Shown here: positions 97 through 27,285 of the stretch, one piece after another
How positions within the stretch are numbered: the first letter of the stretch is position 1
Layout: each line of letters opens with the position of its first letter
Origin: a virus
IMG/VR virus record: IMGVR_UViG_3300042691_049632
Location: 1-27,631 of that record
Reading direction: 5' to 3' (one strand)
Length of the DNA stretch: 27,631 bases
Notes under the pieces: generated by a model
Told to the model about the DNA's origin: nothing
Databases searched by the model: none
The model's input: only the letters and a program-made list of their open reading frames with translations
Program-made: the position numbers and the translations under genes

Positions 97-741
97 ATGA
101 CTGCGCCACGGGCGGGACGGTGGTCGTGGCCGACGGGCAAGCAGCTCGCGGCGGCGCTGGGCGTCAGCCGGAACTCGATCACGGCCTGGGCTGAGGCCGG
201 CGCGCCGGCCGGGCCGCCGTTCGACGAGTTCGCCTGGCGCACGTGGGCCGCGGGCCACGCGAAGGAATGCCGCCGGGCGCCCGAGCCCGAGCTGCTCGCC
301 GAGCTCGCCGCCGCCGGCGTCGGGCCCTACCGCCGCGCGGTGGCACCCGCCCCGGCCGCGGCCAGCGCCACTCCCGCGCTGCCTGGCATCCCCGCCCAGC
401 CCCTCACCTCGATCGAGTCCTACGAGGCCCTCCTGGGCGCCCCCAAGACCTGGGCAGAGGCCGAGAAGCGCGAAGGCGTCCGTGGTCAGCTGATCCGCAA
501 CGCCGAGATGGCCGAAGAGGCCTCGATCGCCACCGCCAAGCGCCGCGGCGAGATCCTCACCATCGCCGAGGTCCTCAAGCGCGAATCCGCCTACGACGCC
601 GCGCTGCTCACCCAACTGGCCGCCCTGCCTGATCTCGTCGCCGGCCTGGTCCCCGCTGACCAGTCCGCCCAGGCCCGGGCCGCCATCAACGCCTGGATCG
701 ATCGCACGCGCACCCTGCTGGCCGGGGTGACCGCGCCGTGA
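97..741 (+). CDS. Phage terminase small subunit, Nu1-like
   Basis: Encodes 214 aa from the ATG at 97. The small terminase subunit recognises the packaging site on phage DNA and hands it to the large subunit. The N-terminus (about residues 10-55) reads as a winged-helix DNA-binding domain of the Nu1 type: KQLAAALGVSRNSITAW, then an acidic/aromatic segment. An Ala/Pro-rich linker follows. The C-terminal half is helical and charged, with an AEKREGVRGQ stretch and a final segment like the gpA-contact region of the family. The stop overlaps the start of the large terminase (GTGA, 738-741), which supports the pairing. An in-frame TTG at 7 would add 30 residues; ATG 97 is preferred because the HTH begins soon after it. 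The call rests on the HTH plus adjacency to gpA. Confidence 0.8.
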   Translation: MTAPRAGRWSWPTGKQLAAALGVSRNSITAWAEAGAPAGPPFDEFAWRTWAAGHAKECRRAPEPELLAELAAAGVGPYRRAVAPAPAAASATPALPGIPAQPLTSIESYEALLGAPKTWAEAEKREGVRGQLIRNAEMAEEASIATAKRRGEILTIAEVLKRESAYDAALLTQLAALPDLVAGLVPADQSAQARAAINAWIDRTRTLLAGVTAP

Positions 742-2651
742 CCTCGGCCCTGGACATCGAACGCGCCGCCCGCCTGCGCGCCCCGCCGGCCCCGCCGACC
801 TACCTGCAGGTCGCCCGCCGCATCCGTCTCCCCGACGGTCGCGCCGAAGGCCAATACTGGGACCCCGCCACCGAACCCAGCCAGATCGCCTACATCCAGA
901 TCGCCGACGACCCGCGCTGGACCGAACTGATCGATGTCGGCCCCTCGCAGCGCGGCAAATCGCTGCGTTCGGTCCTGCTCCCCCTGATCCGCTCGCTCTG
1001 CGAACTCAGCCAGGCGGTCATCTATGTGATGCCGAGCCTGGACAAGATCGACCAGCACTGGCACGGCAAACTACGCCCCGCCCTGGCCAAGGCCGGCTAC
1101 AGCGCCTGGCTGCCGACCACCGGCCCCGGATCCGCCGGCGGCCGCGCGTCGGTGATCCTCTTCCGCAACCCCGAAACCGGCAACACCGCCCCGCTCTACT
1201 TCCAGGCCATGGGTGGCGGCGGCAAGGAAACGAGCCTGGCCTCGAACACCGCGCCGGTGGTCGTCTGCGACGAAGCCGACGACGCCCAGGACGAAGGCCA
1301 CTTCGGCCTGGTCCGCCGCCGCACCCGATCCTTCGGAGCCGCCGGCTACCGCATCTGCTACGCCTCGACCATCAACGACCGCCTCGACCGCGACGCGCAC
1401 CCCATCCTCGCCGCCTGGCGTGAGGGCACCCGCTCGCGCATGTGGTTCGCCTGCCCATTCTGCGGCCGCTTCCAGGCCCTCGAATGGGACCGGGTCAAGT
1501 TCGACGACATCGAGTCTCGCTATTCCTGCGTCCACTGCCCAGCGCTGTGGACCGAAACCGACCGCCAGATGGCGTTGCGCAAATGGCGCCTGGTCCACCA
1601 GGGCCAGGACGTCGATGCCGCCGGCCAGATCACCGGCCCCGCCCCCACCGGCCGCACCTTCAGCCTGCGCACCTGGGATCTCGATTACCACAGCGCCAAC
1701 CTCGACCAGGTCGTCGAAGAAGCCCGCGCCGCCCGCCGTGCCTGCGATGAACGCGGCGACCACACCGCCCTGCGCCAATTCCACCACAAGGTGCTGGTCC
1801 TCGAATACGACGGCGACCGCAAGGAAGCCGGCGACGACCTCACGTGGCAGTACCTGCTCGGCCGCTCGCAGACCTGCATCTACGGCCCCGCCCGCGCCAC
1901 CACCGATCGCGACCCCGCCGCGCCTGGCCACACCTACTCGCGCCACCTCTGCGCCCCGCCGCCCGAGGCCTACCTCTGCGCCCTCTTCGTCGACGTCCAG
2001 CACAACCGCGTCTACTGGACCCTGATCGCCATGGCCCTCGATGGCACCACCTGGGACGTCGCCTGGGGCTATGAACTCGCCCGCGCGGACGCCGCCCCGT
2101 GGAACACGATCGAACTCCACGCCCTGCTCGACCGCGTCAACCGCATCGCCAGCGAAGCTGCCCAGCCCGTCCCGCTGGCCATCGCCGGCCTCGATGTCGG
2201 CGATCAGCCCGACCAGCTCATGCCCTGGCTCGCCGGCCACCGCGCCACCTGGGTGCCCTGCAAGGGTATCGATCGCCAGATGAAGGCCGAACCCGGCGAC
2301 CTCGACGGCCTGGTCTGGATCCGCGACGGCCTCCACCTCACCCACGTCGACCACAGCCGCGACCTGGTCCACGCCGCCCTGCGCCGCCCGAACGGCCAGC
2401 CCGGCGCCGCCCATCTCCCCAACGGCCTCCTGCAGAACCCGAGCGATACCGCCTACCTCCGCCACCTGGTCGGCGAGCTCCAGATCATCGATCGCAAGAC
2501 CGGAAAGCCGAAACTGCAACAACGCGGCCGCTGGGACTGGCTCGACTGCCGACGCGGCGCCCACGTCCTCGCCCTCCTGAAACTGCGCCGCATGACCGCG
2601 GCCCGTCCACCATCGCGACGCTATGGCGTTGTCGGAAAGGCTCTCGCGTGA
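738..2651 (+). CDS. Phage terminase large subunit, GpA family
   Basis: Encodes 637 aa from a GTG that overlaps the previous stop. This is the packaging motor: an ATPase that drives DNA into the prohead, plus a nuclease that cuts the concatemer. A variant Walker A, GPSQRGKS, is at residues 68-75, and a Walker B, VVVCDEAD, is at 174-181 with acidic pair D178/E179. Two CxxC pairs (C239/C242 and C264/C267, in CPFCGR and CVHC) form the zinc-ribbon-like element seen in many GpA proteins between the ATPase and nuclease parts. The nuclease half has acidic residues in hydrophobic strands: D419 in LFVDVQ and D486 in GLDVGD. The length matches lambda gpA (about 640 aa). In most lambda-like phages gpW follows directly; here it lies nearly 3 kb downstream. 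Confidence 0.95.
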   Translation: MTSALDIERAARLRAPPAPPTYLQVARRIRLPDGRAEGQYWDPATEPSQIAYIQIADDPRWTELIDVGPSQRGKSLRSVLLPLIRSLCELSQAVIYVMPSLDKIDQHWHGKLRPALAKAGYSAWLPTTGPGSAGGRASVILFRNPETGNTAPLYFQAMGGGGKETSLASNTAPVVVCDEADDAQDEGHFGLVRRRTRSFGAAGYRICYASTINDRLDRDAHPILAAWREGTRSRMWFACPFCGRFQALEWDRVKFDDIESRYSCVHCPALWTETDRQMALRKWRLVHQGQDVDAAGQITGPAPTGRTFSLRTWDLDYHSANLDQVVEEARAARRACDERGDHTALRQFHHKVLVLEYDGDRKEAGDDLTWQYLLGRSQTCIYGPARATTDRDPAAPGHTYSRHLCAPPPEAYLCALFVDVQHNRVYWTLIAMALDGTTWDVAWGYELARADAAPWNTIELHALLDRVNRIASEAAQPVPLAIAGLDVGDQPDQLMPWLAGHRATWVPCKGIDRQMKAEPGDLDGLVWIRDGLHLTHVDHSRDLVHAALRRPNGQPGAAHLPNGLLQNPSDTAYLRHLVGELQIIDRKTGKPKLQQRGRWDWLDCRRGAHVLALLKLRRMTAARPPSRRYGVVGKALA

Positions 2652-3028
2652 TCGATCCCGCCGCCCATCCCGATCTGGTCTCACTGTTCTACCGAGGATT
2701 TTCTAAAGGGTTCCCCGGTGAACCCGAATGGTTGCAGTGCTTTATTCGCGGCCACCTGTATCGCCGTGCGGTTCTTGCCGCGATTGGTTCCGGAGCCGCG
2801 CGACACTCGATAACCGTCGGGTTCTCGAACGTTGGCACCGTCGACCAACCATGCGTGCGGCATTCCGGCGGTCACTGGAATGTTGCGCAGGGCGTCAGCG
2901 GCGGCTGGCACCACGCATGGAATGAGCACAGCCGCCTGGCGTATTGCGCGGCGCTCGGTCAATCGCCGATGTTCATCACCAAACCCACCAGCTTCACCGA
3001 GTACCTGCTCTCGAAAGACCAGAAATGA
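2648..3028 (+). CDS. Hypothetical protein, 126 aa
   Basis: Starts at a GTG overlapping the terminase stop (GTGA) and ends in an ATGA overlap with the next gene, so it is translationally coupled on both sides. I do not recognise the family. The protein is rich in Gly, His, Trp and aromatic residues, with a compact middle (GGHWNVAQGVSGGWHHAW, about residues 77-94). It has no signal peptide or membrane segment. Its base composition is noticeably less GC-rich than the terminase upstream and the DUF115-like gene downstream. Together with its location between terminase and gpW, this suggests an acquired accessory gene. An open frame extends further upstream inside the terminase gene, but that part is low-complexity Arg/Pro shadow sequence, so the GTG at 2648 is chosen. 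Confidence 0.7.
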   Translation: MIDPAAHPDLVSLFYRGFSKGFPGEPEWLQCFIRGHLYRRAVLAAIGSGAARHSITVGFSNVGTVDQPCVRHSGGHWNVAQGVSGGWHHAWNEHSRLAYCAALGQSPMFITKPTSFTEYLLSKDQK

Positions 3029-4362
3029 CCACCCTCGACATCGACGCCTTCGCCGCCCTCCACAACGCCACCACCCCCGACCAGCTCTTCTACCACCTGC
3101 GCCGCCACTACGCCGATCACCGCCAGATCGCCACGCTCGCCAGCACCACGCTGATCGGCCGCGATCCCGAGCTGCTCGATCTGGTCGAAGAACGCCTCGC
3201 GCTCTACTTCCTCGATCTCGGCAACAGCTTCCAGGACACCTGGCAGGGGGTTGGCAACGCACTCGGGCACCGCTCGCGCCTCACCACCTGCCCGACCACC
3301 GACGACCTTGCTGGCCGCTTCGCCGGCATGCCCGCGGTGGTGCTCGGCGCCGGCCCCAGCGTCGATCCCTGCTGGGACGCGATCGCCGCCGCGCGCCAGG
3401 GCGCGATCCTGTTCGTGGTCGACGCCATGGTGCGGCCCTGCCTGGCGCGCGGCATCCGCCCGGACTTCGTCTGCGCGGTCGAACGCCTGCCCGATGTCTA
3501 CGACTGCATGGCCGGCCTCGACAAGTCCGGCATGGCGCTGATCGCGCCGGTCGTGGTCGAACCGCGCCTGATCGATGACTTCGGCGGCCGCGTGATCTGG
3601 GCCTGGCGAGCCTGCCTGATCGAACAATGGATCGACCCCGGCGTGCGCCCCTGCAACACCGGCCACAGTTCCGGAACCGTCGCCCTGGCCGCGGCCGCGC
3701 TCGCCGGGTGCGATCCCATCCACCTGGTCGGCCACGATCTGTGCATGCAGGGCGCCGCCACCCACTGCGCCACCGCCGACAGCATGGTCGAGATGACTGC
3801 CGACCACCTCGATCGGGACCAGCTGCACATCCGCACCCCCGCGACGAACTGGAAGGGCGACCCGGTCATCACCATCCCGCTCTGGGAGCTGCTGAAGGCC
3901 GATCTGGAACACACCCTCAGCGAACACCCCGACCGCCGCGCCATCGTCGCCGGCGACGGCCTGGCCATCCGCGGCACCACCCGCGGCAGCCTGCCGGCAA
4001 CCGGTTGGAAACGCCTGCCCCGCCGTCGTGATGGCACCCTGGCCATGCCGCGCCGCCGCGCCCCCGGCGCCGACGTCTGCACGCTGTTCCCGCAGATCCG
4101 CCAGGACTGCGACGCCCTCGAAAAGGTCTGCCGGGACATCCTCGCCGCCCCCGGCCCGGACGATGCCGAACGCCTGCGCCTCAGCCGCATCGTCCCGCCG
4201 TCCACGGTCATCCTGTGGTCCGAACTGCTCCAGAACATCCTCGAAGCCGCGCTGGTCCGCCTCCATCTCCAACCCTGGTCCACCAGGGAAACCCACCACC
4301 ACGTCGCCATCACCGTCCTCACGGTGATCGACATTCTCCGCCAGGAACTGCCCCATGCCTGA
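3025..4362 (+). CDS. DUF115 / MptE-like (Maf-type) protein
   Basis: Encodes 445 aa from the ATG of an ATGA overlap. The central region matches the DUF115 family, which includes flagellin glycosylation factors (Maf) and the archaeal pterin pyrophosphokinase MptE. Residues 105-112 give VVLGAGPS. A strand follows with VVDAMVRPCLARGIRPDFV, the family's 'D-A-x-x-x-L-x-x-G-I-x-P-D' pattern. From residue 213, GHSSGTVALAAAALAGCD leads into HLVGHDL, the 'G-x-x-x-T-A-L...G...LVGxDL' block. Flanking helical regions are not recognised. Family members handle nucleotide-activated substrates, often sugars such as pseudaminic or legionaminic acid; the substrate here is unknown. Within a phage packaging operon it is an accessory gene, perhaps one that modifies host surface glycans or virion proteins (inference). 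The fold-level call is fairly firm; the reaction is not. Confidence 0.75.
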   Translation: MTTLDIDAFAALHNATTPDQLFYHLRRHYADHRQIATLASTTLIGRDPELLDLVEERLALYFLDLGNSFQDTWQGVGNALGHRSRLTTCPTTDDLAGRFAGMPAVVLGAGPSVDPCWDAIAAARQGAILFVVDAMVRPCLARGIRPDFVCAVERLPDVYDCMAGLDKSGMALIAPVVVEPRLIDDFGGRVIWAWRACLIEQWIDPGVRPCNTGHSSGTVALAAAALAGCDPIHLVGHDLCMQGAATHCATADSMVEMTADHLDRDQLHIRTPATNWKGDPVITIPLWELLKADLEHTLSEHPDRRAIVAGDGLAIRGTTRGSLPATGWKRLPRRRDGTLAMPRRRAPGADVCTLFPQIRQDCDALEKVCRDILAAPGPDDAERLRLSRIVPPSTVILWSELLQNILEAALVRLHLQPWSTRETHHHVAITVLTVIDILRQELPHA

Positions 4363-5736: not shown

Positions 5737-7195
5737 GCTCAATCCGCTCTCCCGGACGCTGGCCTTCTTCACCAGTGTCGCCTCGGTGGTCGGGAACTGG
5801 CTGGGCGCCTATTCCGGCAGCGACCTGCGCCGCAAGCCGCTCCAGGGCCGCCGTCCGACCAGTTCCACCGCCAACCAGGCCCTGGCCGGCAACCTGCCGC
5901 TGCTGCGCGCCCACTGCCGCCAGCTCGAACGCAACAACCCCACCGCCCGCGCCGCCATCGAAGGCCTCGCCGCCCACGTCATCGGCAGCGGCATCGCCCT
6001 GCAGCCGGACACCGGCGACCAGGCCATAGACAAGCGGATCGCGGACCAGTGGAAGGAATTCCTGGCCACCTGCGCCGTCGACGGGTGCGACCTCTACCAC
6101 CTGCAGCTCCAGGCCTTCCGCGAAGTGGTCACCGCCGGCGAATTCCTCTGGCGCCTGGTGATCCTGCCCGAGCGCTCCAACGCCGGCGATGTGCCGCTCG
6201 CGGTGCTGCCGCTCGAAGCCGAATGGATCGCCGAAGGCCTCAACCAGCCCGTCTATGACGGCCAGATCGTACGCCTCGGTGGCGTCGAGATGGATCGTCT
6301 CGGACGCCCGCAGCGCTACTGGCTGATGAATCCCGAACTCGACGCCACCTCCAATCCTGAACCGGTTCCAGCTGCTGAGATCATCCATGGCTTCGAGCGT
6401 CGTCGCAGCCTCCAGGCCCGCGGCGAACCCTGGCTCGCCCCGGTGATTGAACGCCTCTACCAGGAAGCCGACCTGGTCGACGCCGAACTGGCTGCCGCGA
6501 AGTCCTCGGCCGGCGTCGCCGTCGCGATCACCAGCAAGTACCACGGCACGCCAGACCAGGACGAATCCGGCGACCCGGTCACCGACATCCCGGTCGGCTC
6601 GACCGTGCGGCTGTTCCCGGATGAAGACGTCTCGGTCATCCAGAACAACCGCCCCTCGCAGATGATCGCGCCGTTCCGCCAGATGCTGCGCGGCGACATC
6701 GCCGCCGCGTTGCGCATCTCGCAGCGATTCCTCGATCGCGACGTCAGTCGCGCCAACTACAGCTCGATGCGCGCCGACATGCTCGATGCTGAACGGCTGC
6801 TCGGCCCGGTCCGTGAATGGATGGGCCACGCCACCGCTGGCCGCCTGTACCGCGCCGCGCTGCCCTGGCTCGCGTTGCGGGCCGGCATCAAGACGCCACG
6901 CGCCGCCTACCGCCTGATCCCCGATGGACAGCCCTACGTCGATCCGCTCAAGGATGCCGAAGCGGCGGCTTCGGCCATCGCCAGCGGTCTCTCGACCCAC
7001 GAGATCGAGATCGGCAAGCGCGGTGGCGACTACCGTGAGATCTGGAAGCAGCTCGCCAAGGAACGCGAGGAAGCCGAAGGCCTCGGCCTGGTGCTCGACC
7101 TCTCCGGCAAGAACACCCCGGCGCCGGAATCGACCATCGGCGAGGACAACGACACCCCAGCGCCGGCCGCCGGCACCGCCAAGGAATCGCCATGA
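5729..7195 (+). CDS. Portal protein, lambda gpB family
   Basis: Encodes 488 aa from a TTG at 5729, chosen because AGGGGA lies about 9 bases upstream and the MAKLNPLSRTL start fits the family. Twelve portal subunits form the ring at one capsid vertex through which DNA enters and to which the neck attaches. Family features include RRKPLQGRRPTSSTANQAL near the N-terminus, LERNNPTARAAIEGLAAHVIGSG (about residues 70-92), and FREVVTAGEFLWRLV (about 130-145). In the C-terminal crown region, RISQRFLDRDVSRANYSSMR matches the conserved 'N-Y-S-S-x-R' signature. The C-terminus is acidic and Pro/Ala-rich. It ends in an ATGA overlap with the protease-capsid gene. Confidence 0.93.
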   Translation: MAKLNPLSRTLAFFTSVASVVGNWLGAYSGSDLRRKPLQGRRPTSSTANQALAGNLPLLRAHCRQLERNNPTARAAIEGLAAHVIGSGIALQPDTGDQAIDKRIADQWKEFLATCAVDGCDLYHLQLQAFREVVTAGEFLWRLVILPERSNAGDVPLAVLPLEAEWIAEGLNQPVYDGQIVRLGGVEMDRLGRPQRYWLMNPELDATSNPEPVPAAEIIHGFERRRSLQARGEPWLAPVIERLYQEADLVDAELAAAKSSAGVAVAITSKYHGTPDQDESGDPVTDIPVGSTVRLFPDEDVSVIQNNRPSQMIAPFRQMLRGDIAAALRISQRFLDRDVSRANYSSMRADMLDAERLLGPVREWMGHATAGRLYRAALPWLALRAGIKTPRAAYRLIPDGQPYVDPLKDAEAAASAIASGLSTHEIEIGKRGGDYREIWKQLAKEREEAEGLGLVLDLSGKNTPAPESTIGEDNDTPAPAAGTAKESP

Positions 7196-14597: not shown

Positions 14598-16414
14598 TGG
14601 CCAACCCCGCGACCCTGACGCGCTGGTTCGGCTGCGATGTCGCCACCGACAGCACCAACCGCAACGGCAAGTGCTGGACGTTCAGCGGTACCGCCACGCG
14701 CACCGCCACCACCTACGCCTCGGGCGGAAAGCATCCGCACCGCAAGCGTGACGTGTTTTCCGGCTCCGTGGGCGCCACCTGGTCGCGGTCGCTGATCGAT
14801 TGCGTCGGCACGTTGCCGTTCTCGTCCTTCGGCTGGGCGAGCATCTTCCTGCCCGCCACCTATTTCCCGGATGGCACCGGGCAGCTGGTCATCGAGGACA
14901 ACAACCGCAACCCGATCCTGACGCTCGACATCACCGGCGGAAACCTCAAGCAGGGTTCGACCATCCTCGCGCCGTGGACCACCACCCAGCGCTATGCCCT
15001 GGCCGTTCACTTCGGCCAGACCGGCAGCCTGTGCGGATCGCTCTACGACCTGACCGGACTCCAGAACGCGCAACGGGCCTGGTCCTTTTCGCTCGGATCC
15101 TGGTCACCCTCGTCGATCGCCGCGATCAACGTCGCCGGCGTCCTTGGCGCCAGCAACCAGGAATGCGACGGCGCCGGCGTCGCCCGCTGGCTGACCATCG
15201 CCGGCGTCGACTCGCTCAGCCACGTCGCCGCGGCTTCGGTCTCTCCGAACCTCGCCACGGTCGAAAACATCGCCGAGGCGCTCGCGCCGCCCTACGACGC
15301 CGCGCTGATCCCCGATGGCGCCTATCCCAACCGCAAGTGGATGGTCGCCGGCCGCGAACGCCGCACGATCATGATCGTCTCCGGTCGCGCCGGTGCGACC
15401 CTCGCGGCATTCAAACAGCACGTCTGGGACCACCTCGATCTCGCCCGCGGCCTCGAGATCGACCTGATGGACGGCCCCAGCGTCAATGAGTTCGTCGGCA
15501 TCTTCGACGTCACCACCCAGTCCAGCGTCCTCGCCGGACTGAAATCGAACACCGAGGCCATCCTCGACGAAGCCAACGCCCGCGACAGCCGCGTGCGCCT
15601 CTCGACCATCGTCACCAGGCCCAACGGTGGATCACCGACCAACTGGTCGACGCTCCAGACCGACTCGATGACGCTGCACGCTGCACAGAATCGTGCGTCA
15701 TCGCGCGCGAAGCAGTCGACCCGCGGGCACATCCTGTTCAGCGACCCGGCGGCAGCGATCGCGAACCATGCCTCGCTATTCGTTGCCGGCACCGACGACG
15801 TGCATCCCACCGCCTCGGGCGTCGGTGAAATCGCGAAGCAGATGATCCTGACCGATACCACGCCGCCGCCTGCGGCTGCTGGTCAGACGTCCGGACGCTC
15901 CAATGGGCAGTGCGCGGTCACCACGCCAGCGGTCGTCATCGGTGAGACCGTCGGACGCTCCAATGGTCAGTGCGCCGCCCCGGCGCCCGCGAATCTCATC
16001 GGCGAGACCGCAGGCCGTTCCAGCGGACAGGCGGCGGTCGCCCTGCCTGCGGGCGTACCGCTTGCCGGCGAAACGGTCGGACGGTCCAGCGGCCAGCTCG
16101 AGGTGACCGCAGTCGGACGCGTCGCCGGCGAGACCAGTGGCCGCGCGGTGGGCGAAGCCCTGATCACCGCTCTCGGACGGATCATCGGTGAAACCACCGG
16201 TCGCAGCACGCTTCAGGCGCTGATCACCGCGCCGACGGCCGGCCCCGGCATGGTGACCGGTCAGGCCTTCGGCCGCAGTTCCGGACAGGCGGCGGTGACC
16301 ATCCCCGGCCAGGGCCCGACGGCACCGCTGAAGGGGCTGCGTCTGAACGCTTCGGTCGGCCGGCGATCGCTCACCGGCCATGTCGGCAACCGCTCGCTGA
16401 AAGCATACGCATAG
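14597..16414 (+). CDS. SGNH-hydrolase-like fibre protein with repeat tail
   Basis: Encodes 605 aa. Residues 1-240 are beta-rich. Residues of about 256-415 resemble an SGNH/GDSL esterase: S262 in IMIVSGRAG at the block I position, DGPSVNEF (292-299) for the Gly/Asn blocks, and DDVHPTASG with D400 and H403 giving the DxxH of block V. Block I lacks the usual GDS, so activity is uncertain. Phage SGNH domains commonly remove acetyl groups from surface polysaccharide. Residues of about 429-575 hold seven copies of a roughly 20-residue repeat (GETxGRSxGQ plus about ten residues), perhaps a shaft or sugar-binding array. The last 30 residues are basic. Its place before the neck genes is unusual for a fibre. 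Confidence 0.6.
   Translation: MANPATLTRWFGCDVATDSTNRNGKCWTFSGTATRTATTYASGGKHPHRKRDVFSGSVGATWSRSLIDCVGTLPFSSFGWASIFLPATYFPDGTGQLVIEDNNRNPILTLDITGGNLKQGSTILAPWTTTQRYALAVHFGQTGSLCGSLYDLTGLQNAQRAWSFSLGSWSPSSIAAINVAGVLGASNQECDGAGVARWLTIAGVDSLSHVAAASVSPNLATVENIAEALAPPYDAALIPDGAYPNRKWMVAGRERRTIMIVSGRAGATLAAFKQHVWDHLDLARGLEIDLMDGPSVNEFVGIFDVTTQSSVLAGLKSNTEAILDEANARDSRVRLSTIVTRPNGGSPTNWSTLQTDSMTLHAAQNRASSRAKQSTRGHILFSDPAAAIANHASLFVAGTDDVHPTASGVGEIAKQMILTDTTPPPAAAGQTSGRSNGQCAVTTPAVVIGETVGRSNGQCAAPAPANLIGETAGRSSGQAAVALPAGVPLAGETVGRSSGQLEVTAVGRVAGETSGRAVGEALITALGRIIGETTGRSTLQALITAPTAGPGMVTGQAFGRSSGQAAVTIPGQGPTAPLKGLRLNASVGRRSLTGHVGNRSLKAYA
15881..16320 (+). repeat. Seven-copy ~60-bp coding repeat
   Basis: Units start at 15881, 15941, 16001, 16067, 16127, 16187 and 16259, so spacings are 60, 60, 66, 60, 60 and 72 bp. 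All are in frame. Each encodes G(E/Q)TxGRSxGQ-like residues followed by a variable ten or so residues. DNA similarity is highest between the first two units, which points to recent duplication there. Confidence 0.85.
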
Positions 16415-23931: not shown

Positions 23932-24938
23932 ATCCCCTGCCGGTCTTTACACTGAGCGAAGGCGTCCCCGACTTCGACGACGTTCCGCCAAACGATCGCA
24001 GTTTCATCTACACGATGACTTGCAGCCATAACAACATCTTCCAGGTCCCGGCCCTGGTTCAGCAGGCCGATTTCATCCACCCGCTTCCTAGGATACGCCC
24101 TTTCCTGCATCCCCTGCCGATGCACGTGACGATCGCGAAAGTCATCCGCCCCGTGGATAATACGTTCACAGAGATCCTCCTGGCCGGGGATCCCCCGTAC
24201 GCTGACACCACGTTCGTCTTCGACCAGGACGCCGGCCTGCGTTACTTCGAGGTGCGCGGACAGATTTTCTCTGGCATAATCCAACGCACGTCGGGCGGGT
24301 TCGGTGGTCCGATCCTGCCATACAAAATCATCCAGCCCTTCCCGAATGGCATCCTACCCGAAGGTGTGGAGGATGGCGACAGGATCACCATTTTCGATCG
24401 CGGTCCACTGATGCCGATGAATATCCCCTGTTACTTCGACCCCGACATCGTGGTCGGATTCGCTGGCGATGGTGAGTTCGATGACTTTTCCGGCCACCTG
24501 GAACACCACAAGGTCCGCGGGTTCCCAGTGGCCGCGCGAAGGTTTGGGCCCGAGATCCGTAGCTGCGCCGGGATCCCACTGATTCTGCCAGCGGCGCAGC
24601 CATTGGATTCGGTCCTGACTGAATGGCCAACCTTCGGCGCTGTCGTTCCGATTGGCTTATTCGGGACGCTCAACTTCATGTGCCCAGAGGGGTGGTATCT
24701 GTGGAGCAATAACGGCGGAGGACAGGAAGAGGTGCAGCGCCTGCGCGTCCCAGTCCCGATGCCCGACCCTAACAACGGCCGTTCAGTCCGTGACAACGGG
24801 CGACTGGGTGCATTTGGGACCATTCCCATGGGCGACATTTCAGGGCCTGAAGCACTCGCATCTCAGGCCCGCGTCCCGATCCGCGCTGCCGATGCTGCAG
24901 GCAAGGATTACCGCGGATTTATTTTCCCCATCGCCTAG
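23928..24938 (+). CDS. Hypothetical tail / receptor-side protein, 336 aa
   Basis: The ATG is in the ATGA overlap with the previous stop; an upstream GTG at 23916 is in frame but adds only four residues. The protein is Pro-, Gly- and Phe-rich and likely beta (TFVFDQDAGLRYFEVRGQIF, PEGWYLWSNNGGG). It is the last late gene before the att region. Base composition is slightly less GC-rich than in the capsid genes. Terminal position is typical of receptor-binding or tail-fibre proteins, but nothing in the sequence proves this. Confidence 0.5.
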   Translation: MNPLPVFTLSEGVPDFDDVPPNDRSFIYTMTCSHNNIFQVPALVQQADFIHPLPRIRPFLHPLPMHVTIAKVIRPVDNTFTEILLAGDPPYADTTFVFDQDAGLRYFEVRGQIFSGIIQRTSGGFGGPILPYKIIQPFPNGILPEGVEDGDRITIFDRGPLMPMNIPCYFDPDIVVGFAGDGEFDDFSGHLEHHKVRGFPVAARRFGPEIRSCAGIPLILPAAQPLDSVLTEWPTFGAVVPIGLFGTLNFMCPEGWYLWSNNGGGQEEVQRLRVPVPMPDPNNGRSVRDNGRLGAFGTIPMGDISGPEALASQARVPIRAADAAGKDYRGFIFPIA

Positions 24939-25011
24939 CCATTGTGGGGGACGGTCAAGAAAAACTTTGCATCAGCCGCCCGGCTCGCATGGTCCCTCCA
25001 GTCGTAGCGAC

Positions 25012-25206
25012 ATGAAGACGCCCGCGAGCACATCCAAAACACCAGCCGGCTTCCGCCTCGGCCTGGTGCTGATCGTCAGCGCGATCCTATCCCCGATCGC
25101 CCTGATTGCCGTCTGCGCATACCTGGACGGCAGCGGTCCGATCGCTGCCGTGCGCTACATCGCCAACGGCTTCCGCCACCATCCACCGGCCCCCGCCCCC
25201 AAGTAG
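25012..25206 (+). CDS. Small single-span membrane protein, holin candidate
   Basis: Encodes 64 aa from an ATG without a strong SD. After a polar N-terminus, residues 15-38 are hydrophobic (GLVLIVSAILSPIALIAVCA), followed by a short basic and Pro-rich tail. One span of this size at the end of a late operon fits a small holin, antiholin or superinfection protein. Nothing distinguishes these. No endolysin is next to it. Confidence 0.45.
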   Translation: MKTPASTSKTPAGFRLGLVLIVSAILSPIALIAVCAYLDGSGPIAAVRYIANGFRHHPPAPAPK

Positions 25207-25236: not shown

Positions 25237-25283
25237 TTTCCCGGCATTTCCCTCGGTTTCCAATCGACGTCCGTGCACACGGA
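25237..25283. repeat. Phased TTTCC repeats and palindrome beside the att core
   Basis: TTTCC occurs at 25237-25241, 25247-25251 and 25257-25261, spaced exactly 10 bp, so the copies face one side of the helix. A short palindrome follows: TCCGTG (25270-25275), CA, CACGGA (25278-25283). The block lies 15 bases to the left of the att core. Integrase arm sites or accessory bending-protein sites are typical there, so it may be part of the attP arm (inference). Confidence 0.4.
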
Positions 25284-25297
25284 TCGTCGTAAGTCTA

Positions 25298-25339
25298 TGC
25301 GTCATCTAGGACTCGAACCTAGGACCCAGGGATTAAGAA
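25298..25339 (-). other. attP core: 3' half of tRNA-Lys(CTT)
   Basis: Read on the - strand this is the 3' part of a tRNA. It starts at the anticodon loop TTCTTAA (anticodon CTT, Lys), continues with TCCCT (3' anticodon stem) and GGGTC (variable loop), then the T arm CTAGG-TTCGAGT-CCTAG. It ends with acceptor strand ATGACGC and discriminator A; CCA is not encoded. The 5' half is absent: the bases before the loop (25340-25346) do not pair with TCCCT and there is no D arm. A tRNA 3' half beside a tyrosine integrase is a classic attachment core. Phage genes lie on both sides, which fits attP rather than a prophage end. Confidence 0.75.
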
Positions 25340-25367
25340 TGCTTGCCGGATCGTTTTACTGCAAGCA
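25340..25367 (-). terminator. Hairpin between integrase stop and att core
   Basis: TGCTTGC (25340-25346 on +) and GCAAGCA (25361-25367) form a perfect 7-bp stem with a 14-base loop. It lies just after the integrase stop in the direction of integrase transcription and is followed there by TTCTTAAT. It may terminate integrase transcripts, or it may be an integrase-related site next to the core. Confidence 0.4.
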
Positions 25368-25368
25368 C

Positions 25369-26622
25369 TTATGATGCGTGTGTATGGATGGTGTGCACGG
25401 GGGCGGCCATGGCCTCGCGCAGCAGGGTGTCGATCTGCTGGGCGGTGGGCAGCAGTTCGCGCGAGAGCCAGTCGGCGAGGTAGTGCCGGCTGGTGACCGC
25501 GGCGGCCAGGTGGTGGCTGTGGCCGAGGAAGGCTTCGACGTGGTCGATCTTCAGGCCGGCGCGCAGGGTCCAGGTGGCGAAGCTCTTGCGCAGGGACTTG
25601 GCGGGCAGGGTCAGTTCGGCGCCGAGGATGGCTTCGCAGCCGTCGCGCATCCAGGCGGCGAAGGCGTGGGCGGTGAAGGGCTGGGCGACGTGCCGGCGGC
25701 TGGCAGTGGTCAGCAGCTGGTCGGCGGGGCGGCGGCCGGCGGCCAGGGCGCGCCACCAGTCGGCGATCAGGGCGGGCACCGGCAGGTCGCGCTGGCTGGC
25801 GGCGGTCTTGGTGGTGGTGGCGGTGCTGCCGGCGGCGCCGCCGATGCGCAGGACCTGGTCGCTGTCGAGATCTCCGCAGCGCAGGCGCGTGGTCTCGGAC
25901 GGGCGTAGGCCCAGGCCGGCGCCGAGGGCGATCGCCAGCCGCAGACGCGGATCGGTGGCGCCGTTCAGCAGGCGGGCGATCAGCGGCAGATCGTAGACCA
26001 GGACGCGCGGTCGGGATTCGCGGCGATCGAGACGGAAGCCGCCCAGCACGTCAGGAAGTCCGACCGATCCCGCCATGCGCGCGGCGCGGCGCAGGTAGAG
26101 CAGGGCGTGCCGGCGCGTGTCCCAGCTGTAGCCCTCGGCGGTCAGGTGGGCGATCCAGGCCTGCGCCTGATCGAGGGTCAACGCTTCGATGCGGTGGATC
26201 CGGGACCACGTGCAGAAGCGCTCGCACCAGGCCCGATGCTTCCGGTAATCATCGGGCTGGCGCTTCGATTCGTGCTGGGTGGATGGATGCGCCAGGGCGG
26301 CATCGAGGATCGACCAGGTGTGCGGCAGCACCTGCTGCAGGGGTGGCGCGGCGCCGCCGCGCAGGGCATCGGCCTGGGCCTGGGTGATCGCCTTGCGGTC
26401 GAGCGCCAGGCGGACGTCGGCATCATCGATGGGTCCGGATCGTCGGGCGCTGTCCAGGCGGGCGCAGAGCAGCTCGCATTCCGTGGCCCAGCGCACGGCC
26501 TCGGCCTTCGGATCGGCGTGGCCGAGCAGATGGGCGGCCGGGACGCGCACGCGGCGCAATTCGCCATGCAGGCCGCGGAAGCCGGCCGTCCAATAACCGC
26601 GATCGCACTGGGCGTTAGGCAT
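25369..26622 (-). CDS. Tyrosine recombinase, phage integrase
   Basis: Encodes 417 aa. It inserts and, with an excisionase, removes the phage genome at the tRNA-Lys 3' end beside it. Residues of about 95-185 form the core-binding (SAM-like) domain (SKRQPDDYRKHRAWCERF, LDQAQAWIAHL). The catalytic domain shows R240 in GAGLGLRPSET, K272 in TKTAASQRDL, a box II of AKSLRKSFAT with R345, H368 in FLGHSHH and the likely nucleophile Y381 in SRHYL. The HxxR His is replaced by Lys (K342). The first 90 residues may be an arm-binding domain. It is transcribed towards the att core and is the last gene of a - strand run. Confidence 0.92.
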   Translation of the reverse strand: MPNAQCDRGYWTAGFRGLHGELRRVRVPAAHLLGHADPKAEAVRWATECELLCARLDSARRSGPIDDADVRLALDRKAITQAQADALRGGAAPPLQQVLPHTWSILDAALAHPSTQHESKRQPDDYRKHRAWCERFCTWSRIHRIEALTLDQAQAWIAHLTAEGYSWDTRRHALLYLRRAARMAGSVGLPDVLGGFRLDRRESRPRVLVYDLPLIARLLNGATDPRLRLAIALGAGLGLRPSETTRLRCGDLDSDQVLRIGGAAGSTATTTKTAASQRDLPVPALIADWWRALAAGRRPADQLLTTASRRHVAQPFTAHAFAAWMRDGCEAILGAELTLPAKSLRKSFATWTLRAGLKIDHVEAFLGHSHHLAAAVTSRHYLADWLSRELLPTAQQIDTLLREAMAAPVHTIHTHAS

Positions 26623-26637
26623 CGGACAGCGTAGTGA

Positions 26638-27285
26638 TCATGGCACGTCGGGGATGAGCAGGGGCCGCAGTCCGGGTCGTCGTTTGACCGCCTTGTCGAT
26701 CGCGCCCTGCGCAGACATGCGCGTGATGGCGAAGTTTTCTATCAACTCGGTGCCATAGGGTCCGAAGTAGACATCGCCGCCGATGATATATGCGGTGATG
26801 ACCCGCAGCAGATCAGCCTGGGCGCGCTGCGCGGGTTGATGGATGAACTGACCGGATGGCGACTTGAAAACTGATGACCGGTTGACGTTGGTACAGAGCA
26901 ACACGACGAAGTCCTCGCGCAGCGCCAGCGGCATCGGGGATTCGGTGGTTTCAATGACGGTCTGCAGTTTCGCGAGATCAGTGAATCCAACTGGTGCGGC
27001 CGCGACCAGGACATCCTTGCGCATGATGCCGACCAAGGGGACTGGCTTGGTCTCTGGCGGCGGAGGTGTGGCTGCGGGTTGCGCCCCGTCCGTTGGCTGT
27101 GCCGCCGGCGCTGGCAGCGGGGTCGGGTCGTTGGGCTTGGTCGTGGTTGAAGCGGGAATCGTGGTAGAGCGATGGGCGACGTCCCGCGTGGTGCGCTTCA
27201 GCGTCACGGCGACCAGGGCGACCATCAGGAGCACGACCGTGGCAGCGAGGAACCAGACGACGAACGAACCGCGTCGGGCGTTCAC
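26638..27285 (-). CDS. Membrane-anchored protein of unknown function
   Basis: Encodes 215 aa from a GTG that overlaps the upstream stop (GTGA). A single N-terminal anchor lies at about residues 8-30 (VVWFLAATVVLLMVALVAV), with basic residues before it, so the rest is probably outside the cytoplasm. Residues 37-82 are a Thr/Pro/Ala-rich linker. The C-terminal domain (83-215) is mixed alpha/beta (FVVLLCTNVNRSSVFKS, RVITAYIIGGDVYFGPYG) and unrecognised. It ends 15 bp before the integrase start, so the two probably share a transcript. It may act at the envelope, for example in lysogeny or exclusion (inference). Confidence 0.6.
   Translation of the reverse strand: MNARRGSFVVWFLAATVVLLMVALVAVTLKRTTRDVAHRSTTIPASTTTKPNDPTPLPAPAAQPTDGAQPAATPPPPETKPVPLVGIMRKDVLVAAAPVGFTDLAKLQTVIETTESPMPLALREDFVVLLCTNVNRSSVFKSPSGQFIHQPAQRAQADLLRVITAYIIGGDVYFGPYGTELIENFAITRMSAQGAIDKAVKRRPGLRPLLIPDVP

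Follow-up and report, generated by a model that had tools for sequence, protein, structure and literature searches.

A 3' half of tRNA-Lys(CTT) beside a tyrosine integrase gene as the probable joined attP of a divergent temperate phage, with a likely host among the Planctomycetota

The window analysed here is an entire virus record of 27,631 bases (IMG/VR record IMGVR_UViG_3300042691_049632). No exact terminal repeat of 12-200 bases was found between its ends and genes are cut at both of them, which makes the record an open fragment rather than a closed circle. From left to right, the plus strand carries genes for TerS (cut by the end), TerL, an MptE-like protein, the portal, a protease-capsid fusion and a head decoration protein, followed by more plus-strand genes up to position 24938 that lack family hits (Table 1). 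The location of the MptE-like gene (PF01973, E 8e-26; 2944-4362) between the terminase and portal genes is unusual, and a 605-aa late protein contains four copies of a degenerate 60-base tandem repeat with a GETxGRSxGQ-type motif (15881-16126). A preliminary description of this DNA had placed tail genes on one side of the feature studied here. In the plus-strand late run, which goes from TerS and TerL through portal and protease/capsid to decoration and then to the genes without family hits, the assignment of the last genes to the tail follows from gene order and not from homology. Beyond these genes, and past a small open reading frame for a possible membrane protein, a tRNA gene fragment begins ca. 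360 bp after the end of the long late-gene run. On its other side, the minus strand encodes a tyrosine integrase and two further genes to which no family could be assigned, the last one being cut by the record end.

The tRNA gene fragment (hereafter the core) consists of 43 bp on the minus strand, which reads ATTCTTAATCCCTGGGTCCTAGGTTCGAGTCCTAGATGACGCA from 25340 to 25298 and is identical without any mismatch to the tRNA-Lys(CTT) genes of two bacterial genomes (L002 and L003), as delimited by aligning window and host tRNAs by eye. This identity ends on both sides, with a against g at 25297 and g against c at 25341. In order, the core comprises the end of the 5' strand of the anticodon stem, the anticodon loop, the variable loop, the T arm, the 3' strand of the acceptor stem and the discriminator, after which the phage copy continues with TAG instead of CCA (GACGCA-TAG). 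The 42 bases that had originally been described as the core (25298-25339) read as reported there, though the identity with host tRNAs extends one base further. Since ARAGORN calls no tRNA gene anywhere in the 27.6-kb window, the core stands without a 5' half, just as had been proposed.

Table 1. Positions of the features in the window and of two elements in the candidate host class
Feature	Position	Strand	Remarks
Terminase large subunit (TerL)	738..2651	+	PF05876/PF20454
Last large late (structural) gene, 340 aa	23916..24938	+	presumed tail/tail-tip protein from gene order; no family hit
Possible small membrane protein, about 64 aa	25013..25206	+	open frame with hydrophobic stretch, part of ORF 24652-25206; between late genes and core
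Candidate integrase arm site, left, CCGTGCACAC	25271..25280	+	10-bp inverted repeat with 25391-25400
Probable attP common core	25298..25340	-	tRNA-Lys(CTT) positions 31-73, anticodon loop to discriminator A, without CCA
Anticodon loop TTCTTAA (CTT)	25333..25339	-	predicted strand-exchange region
Tyrosine integrase (int), 417 aa	25369..26622	-	transcribed towards core; stop codon 28 bp from core
Candidate integrase arm site, right, CCGTGCACAC	25391..25400	-	within last int codons
215-aa protein	26638..27285	-	N-terminal hydrophobic stretch; no family hit
G003:C91 mobilizable element in tRNA-Lys(CTT)	L024 7000-13104		integrase, relaxase, NikA/MobC-like and TraG/TraD-like coupling-protein genes
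G009 prophage, about 39 kb, in tRNA-Met(CAT)	C31:251844-290830 (L056-L058)		intact tRNA at one end, 3' half at the other

To find complete tRNA genes with this 3' half, we searched a collection of 84,980 species, each represented by a single genome, for an exact 41-base pattern of the core. Only two species records contain it, each time inside a complete tRNA-Lys(CTT) gene, and judged by the sequences an exact match of 41 bases in two records is far beyond chance. One of them (L002) is Planctomycetota bacterium SKYG3, while the other (L003) is a MAG named Candidatus Kuenenia, yet with very G+C-rich DNA. Both genomes (G001 and G002) are MAGs and belong to the same class, of which 23 genomes were available. 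The tRNA-Lys(CTT) genes of other class members have the T arm and the anticodon arm of the core but different acceptor stems. In a small test of tetranucleotide signatures covering 20 sampled Planctomycetota stretches, the eight nearest to the window all came from this class, led by genomes G004 and G015, although one class genome with 45% G+C (G009) lies far from the window. Together, these observations suggest that the host of the phage most likely belongs to the small Planctomycetota class of which L002 and L003 are members. The bacterial tRNA-Lys(CTT) site that had been predicted from the core alone is therefore backed by actual genes carrying the exact 3' half.

The integrase gene next to the core is well recognizable by family matches (PF00589, E 1.2e-9; PHROG integrase, E 2.2e-24, PHROG 1 and 216), and structure comparison pointed weakly to XerC-like and IntI4 structures. 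Its box II reads AKSLRKSFAT compared with PHQLRHSFAT in relatives, i.e., a lysine takes the place of the usual catalytic histidine II. Around the core, two copies of CCGTGCACAC form an inverted repeat whose centre (25335.5) falls on the anticodon loop. An inverted repeat centred on the loop in this way was equalled in 14 of 5000 shuffles of the flanks (about 0.3%) and at 12 of 3862 alternative centres along the window. The two copies may be a pair of arm sites of the integrase, but we noticed this pair post hoc and therefore consider it suggestive only. The loop-centred test was the only one among our arm-site tests to stand out; a search by shared k-mers over 540 bp did not reach significance overall (p about 0.08).

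Searches for relatives of the phage itself returned little. Blastn with the attP region and tblastn with the integrase against the phage collection both found no relative, and neither did scans of viral_contigs with the integrase, TerL, a 742-aa late protein, the capsid and tRNA patterns. TerL and the capsid match known phages at 24-28% only, and the integrase gave one weak hit (31%) among 392 genomes of the phylum. By these comparisons, the phage is divergent and has no close relative in the collections searched. The 215-aa gene beyond int was also considered as a possible host gene, but its single weak hit among the 392 genomes lends this no support.

We therefore read positions 25298-25340, with high confidence, as the attP core of a temperate tailed phage. 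In this reading the phage integrase pairs the core with a tRNA-Lys(CTT) gene of the host, and the record shows the site in joined form. The adjacent tyrosine integrase would pair the core with the host gene, and strand exchange would take place in or near the anticodon loop because the identity begins at tRNA position 31, where the lone 3' halves in the genomes G003 and (approximately) G009 begin as well. If the integrase is active, integration would connect the phage-borne 3' half to the host 5' half, leaving an intact tRNA-Lys beside the late genes, while the displaced 3' half of the host would end up beside the integrase gene. Consistent with such a restoration, ARAGORN calls a tRNA-Lys(CTT) of 73 nt when the 5' half of the L003 tRNA is joined in silico to the 3' half of the phage. 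The function as attP that had been assigned to this site thus finds support in the 43-bp tRNA identity, the adjacent integrase gene and class relatives with split sites.

Since late genes lie on one side of the core and int on the other, the site appears in its joined (excised, pre-integration or packaged) form. Host genes, whose continuity with the core had been named beforehand as the sign against an unsplit site, were not found next to it on either side: the left consists of 25 kb of late phage genes, and the right of the integrase gene followed by two genes with no convincing homologue among host genes. The conclusion that the window is free or excised phage DNA can be kept as far as the joined attP is concerned, but a joined site is by itself no proof of virion DNA. 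It would look the same in an excised circle inside a cell, in a tandem lysogen or in an assembly that had jumped across the 43-bp repeat. We regard excised or free phage DNA as the origin of the window and the tandem or the misjoin as less likely.

An assembly jump from attL to attR could have fused the ends of an integrated prophage, given that both sites of a lysogen would have at least these 43 bp in common. However, the k-mers used in metagenome assembly usually reach beyond 43 bp and no further sign of a misjoin was seen, which makes such an artefact very improbable. A little more weight, though still not much, can be given to tandem or neighbouring chromosomal elements, in which case the core would mark where the late-gene end of one prophage meets the integrase end of a different element in the same tRNA gene. 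In this class, tRNA-Lys(CTT) is indeed used by another kind of element (G003), int has a higher G+C content than the late genes (72% compared with 68%), and about 129 tandem arrays are recorded in Islander (125 of two and 4 of three or more elements; PMC4383910). Yet these are rare relative to single islands, the G+C content of int at the codon positions falls inside the range spanned by the late genes, and a single circular phage map accounts for both sides of the core without a second element. We give hardly any credence to the idea of a decayed phage tRNA gene without a role in integration: phages carry tRNAs and fragments of them can decay, but the identity is perfect over 43 bp, its boundary lies exactly at the anticodon loop as it does in an independent element, and the integrase gene is only 28 bp away.

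Searching the class for prophages at this kind of site, in line with an earlier suggestion, brought up elements in tRNA-Lys(CTT) and tRNA-Met genes but no lysogen of the window phage, and none of the 23 class genomes contains a relative of its integrase at E 1e-8. The element in G003 has left a lone 3' half of tRNA-Lys(CTT) on contig C91 that starts with ATTCTTAATCCC, exactly at the same base as the core in the window. Despite the same tRNA and the same core boundary, it is not a phage (with its relaxase and coupling protein), and its unrelated-looking integrase (BLASTP E 0.24) has the opposite orientation. The G009 element is a prophage bounded on one side by an intact tRNA-Met (251844-251920), with a TerL homologue near 256250 and an integrase gene at 289557-290657 (L058:13557-14657) that runs into the 3' half of tRNA-Met, which starts at about 290782 (L058:14783) and is followed by host ffh. 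This prophage also carries a VapE-like primase. It resembles the window phage in the boundary at the anticodon loop, in the integrase gene transcribed into the tRNA 3' half and in a distantly related TerL (27-32% identical), and it differs in its integrated (split) site, a core that includes CCA and late genes in opposite orientation. The polarity from int to the tRNA half is common to both, with phage late genes in the window where G009 has ffh, so that this integrated relative from the same class shows the layout of the split state. BLASTP detects no similarity between its integrase and the one encoded in the window. Because meaningful similarity to the latter is missing for the integrases of both class elements, the use of anticodon-loop sites by these elements and by the window phage looks independent.

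Phage attP sites that contain a tRNA 3' half from the anticodon loop onwards are common textbook cases, and the mechanism is ordinary. The closest known counterpart is the anticodon-centred ('A') class of tyrosine integrases, whose attP carries a 3' piece of the tDNA (Islander, PMC4383910; Williams 2002, cited therein). As for how frequent such sites are, Islander contains 3760 islands with 3' tDNA fragments compared with 159 with 5' fragments, and 2083 islands have an anticodon-centred attP (PMC4383910). The anticodon loop is one of the known tDNA crossover subsites. The window has the features of this 'A' class (PMC4383910) without essential difference, i.e., a 3' fragment from the anticodon loop that would restore the tRNA upon integration, an adjoining tyrosine integrase gene and a complete target tRNA in L002 and L003; only the CCA encoded by these exactly matching host tRNAs is missing from the phage copy. 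Mycobacteriophage Fionnbharth, known for tRNA-dependent lysogeny, likewise integrates in the anticodon region of a tRNA-Lys gene, but its core is limited to about 10 bp and a complete tRNA is supplied by the phage (PMC10865867). In the window, by contrast, the 43-bp core itself would restore the tRNA and the 27.6-kb record holds no whole tRNA. What the core adds is a host assignment at the sequence level for a divergent phage, pointing to a small and little-studied class of Planctomycetota.

The lack of CCA in the phage copy had led to the prediction of a host tRNA that does not encode it either. L002 and L003, which both encode CCA, speak against this, whereas the tRNA-Lys(CTT) genes of G004 and G015, the genomes closest in tetranucleotides, do not encode it but differ from the core in the acceptor stem. 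A host without encoded CCA would thus be possible. We also considered the CCA-less tRNA genes of G004 and G015 as occupied sites, but chromosomal-looking genes follow them and no integrase was recognised among the listed frames. If the host encodes CCA, a lysogen would depend on CCA addition. It seems rather unlikely that the phage indeed swaps a CCA-encoding tRNA-Lys(CTT) for its CCA-less copy, so that the only CTT tRNA of every lysogen would need the CCA-adding enzyme of the host; if true, integration might have a regulatory or compatibility effect. In L003, a near-perfect palindrome with arms of about 37 bp (GATGACGCACCATCGCAGAAACGCAGAGAGCCCGGCC) is formed where the host tRNA-Lys gene ends and its 3' flank begins (approximately 6365-6455). 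It takes in the last tRNA bases and the terminator and may be a fold-back, a remnant or an assembly artefact.
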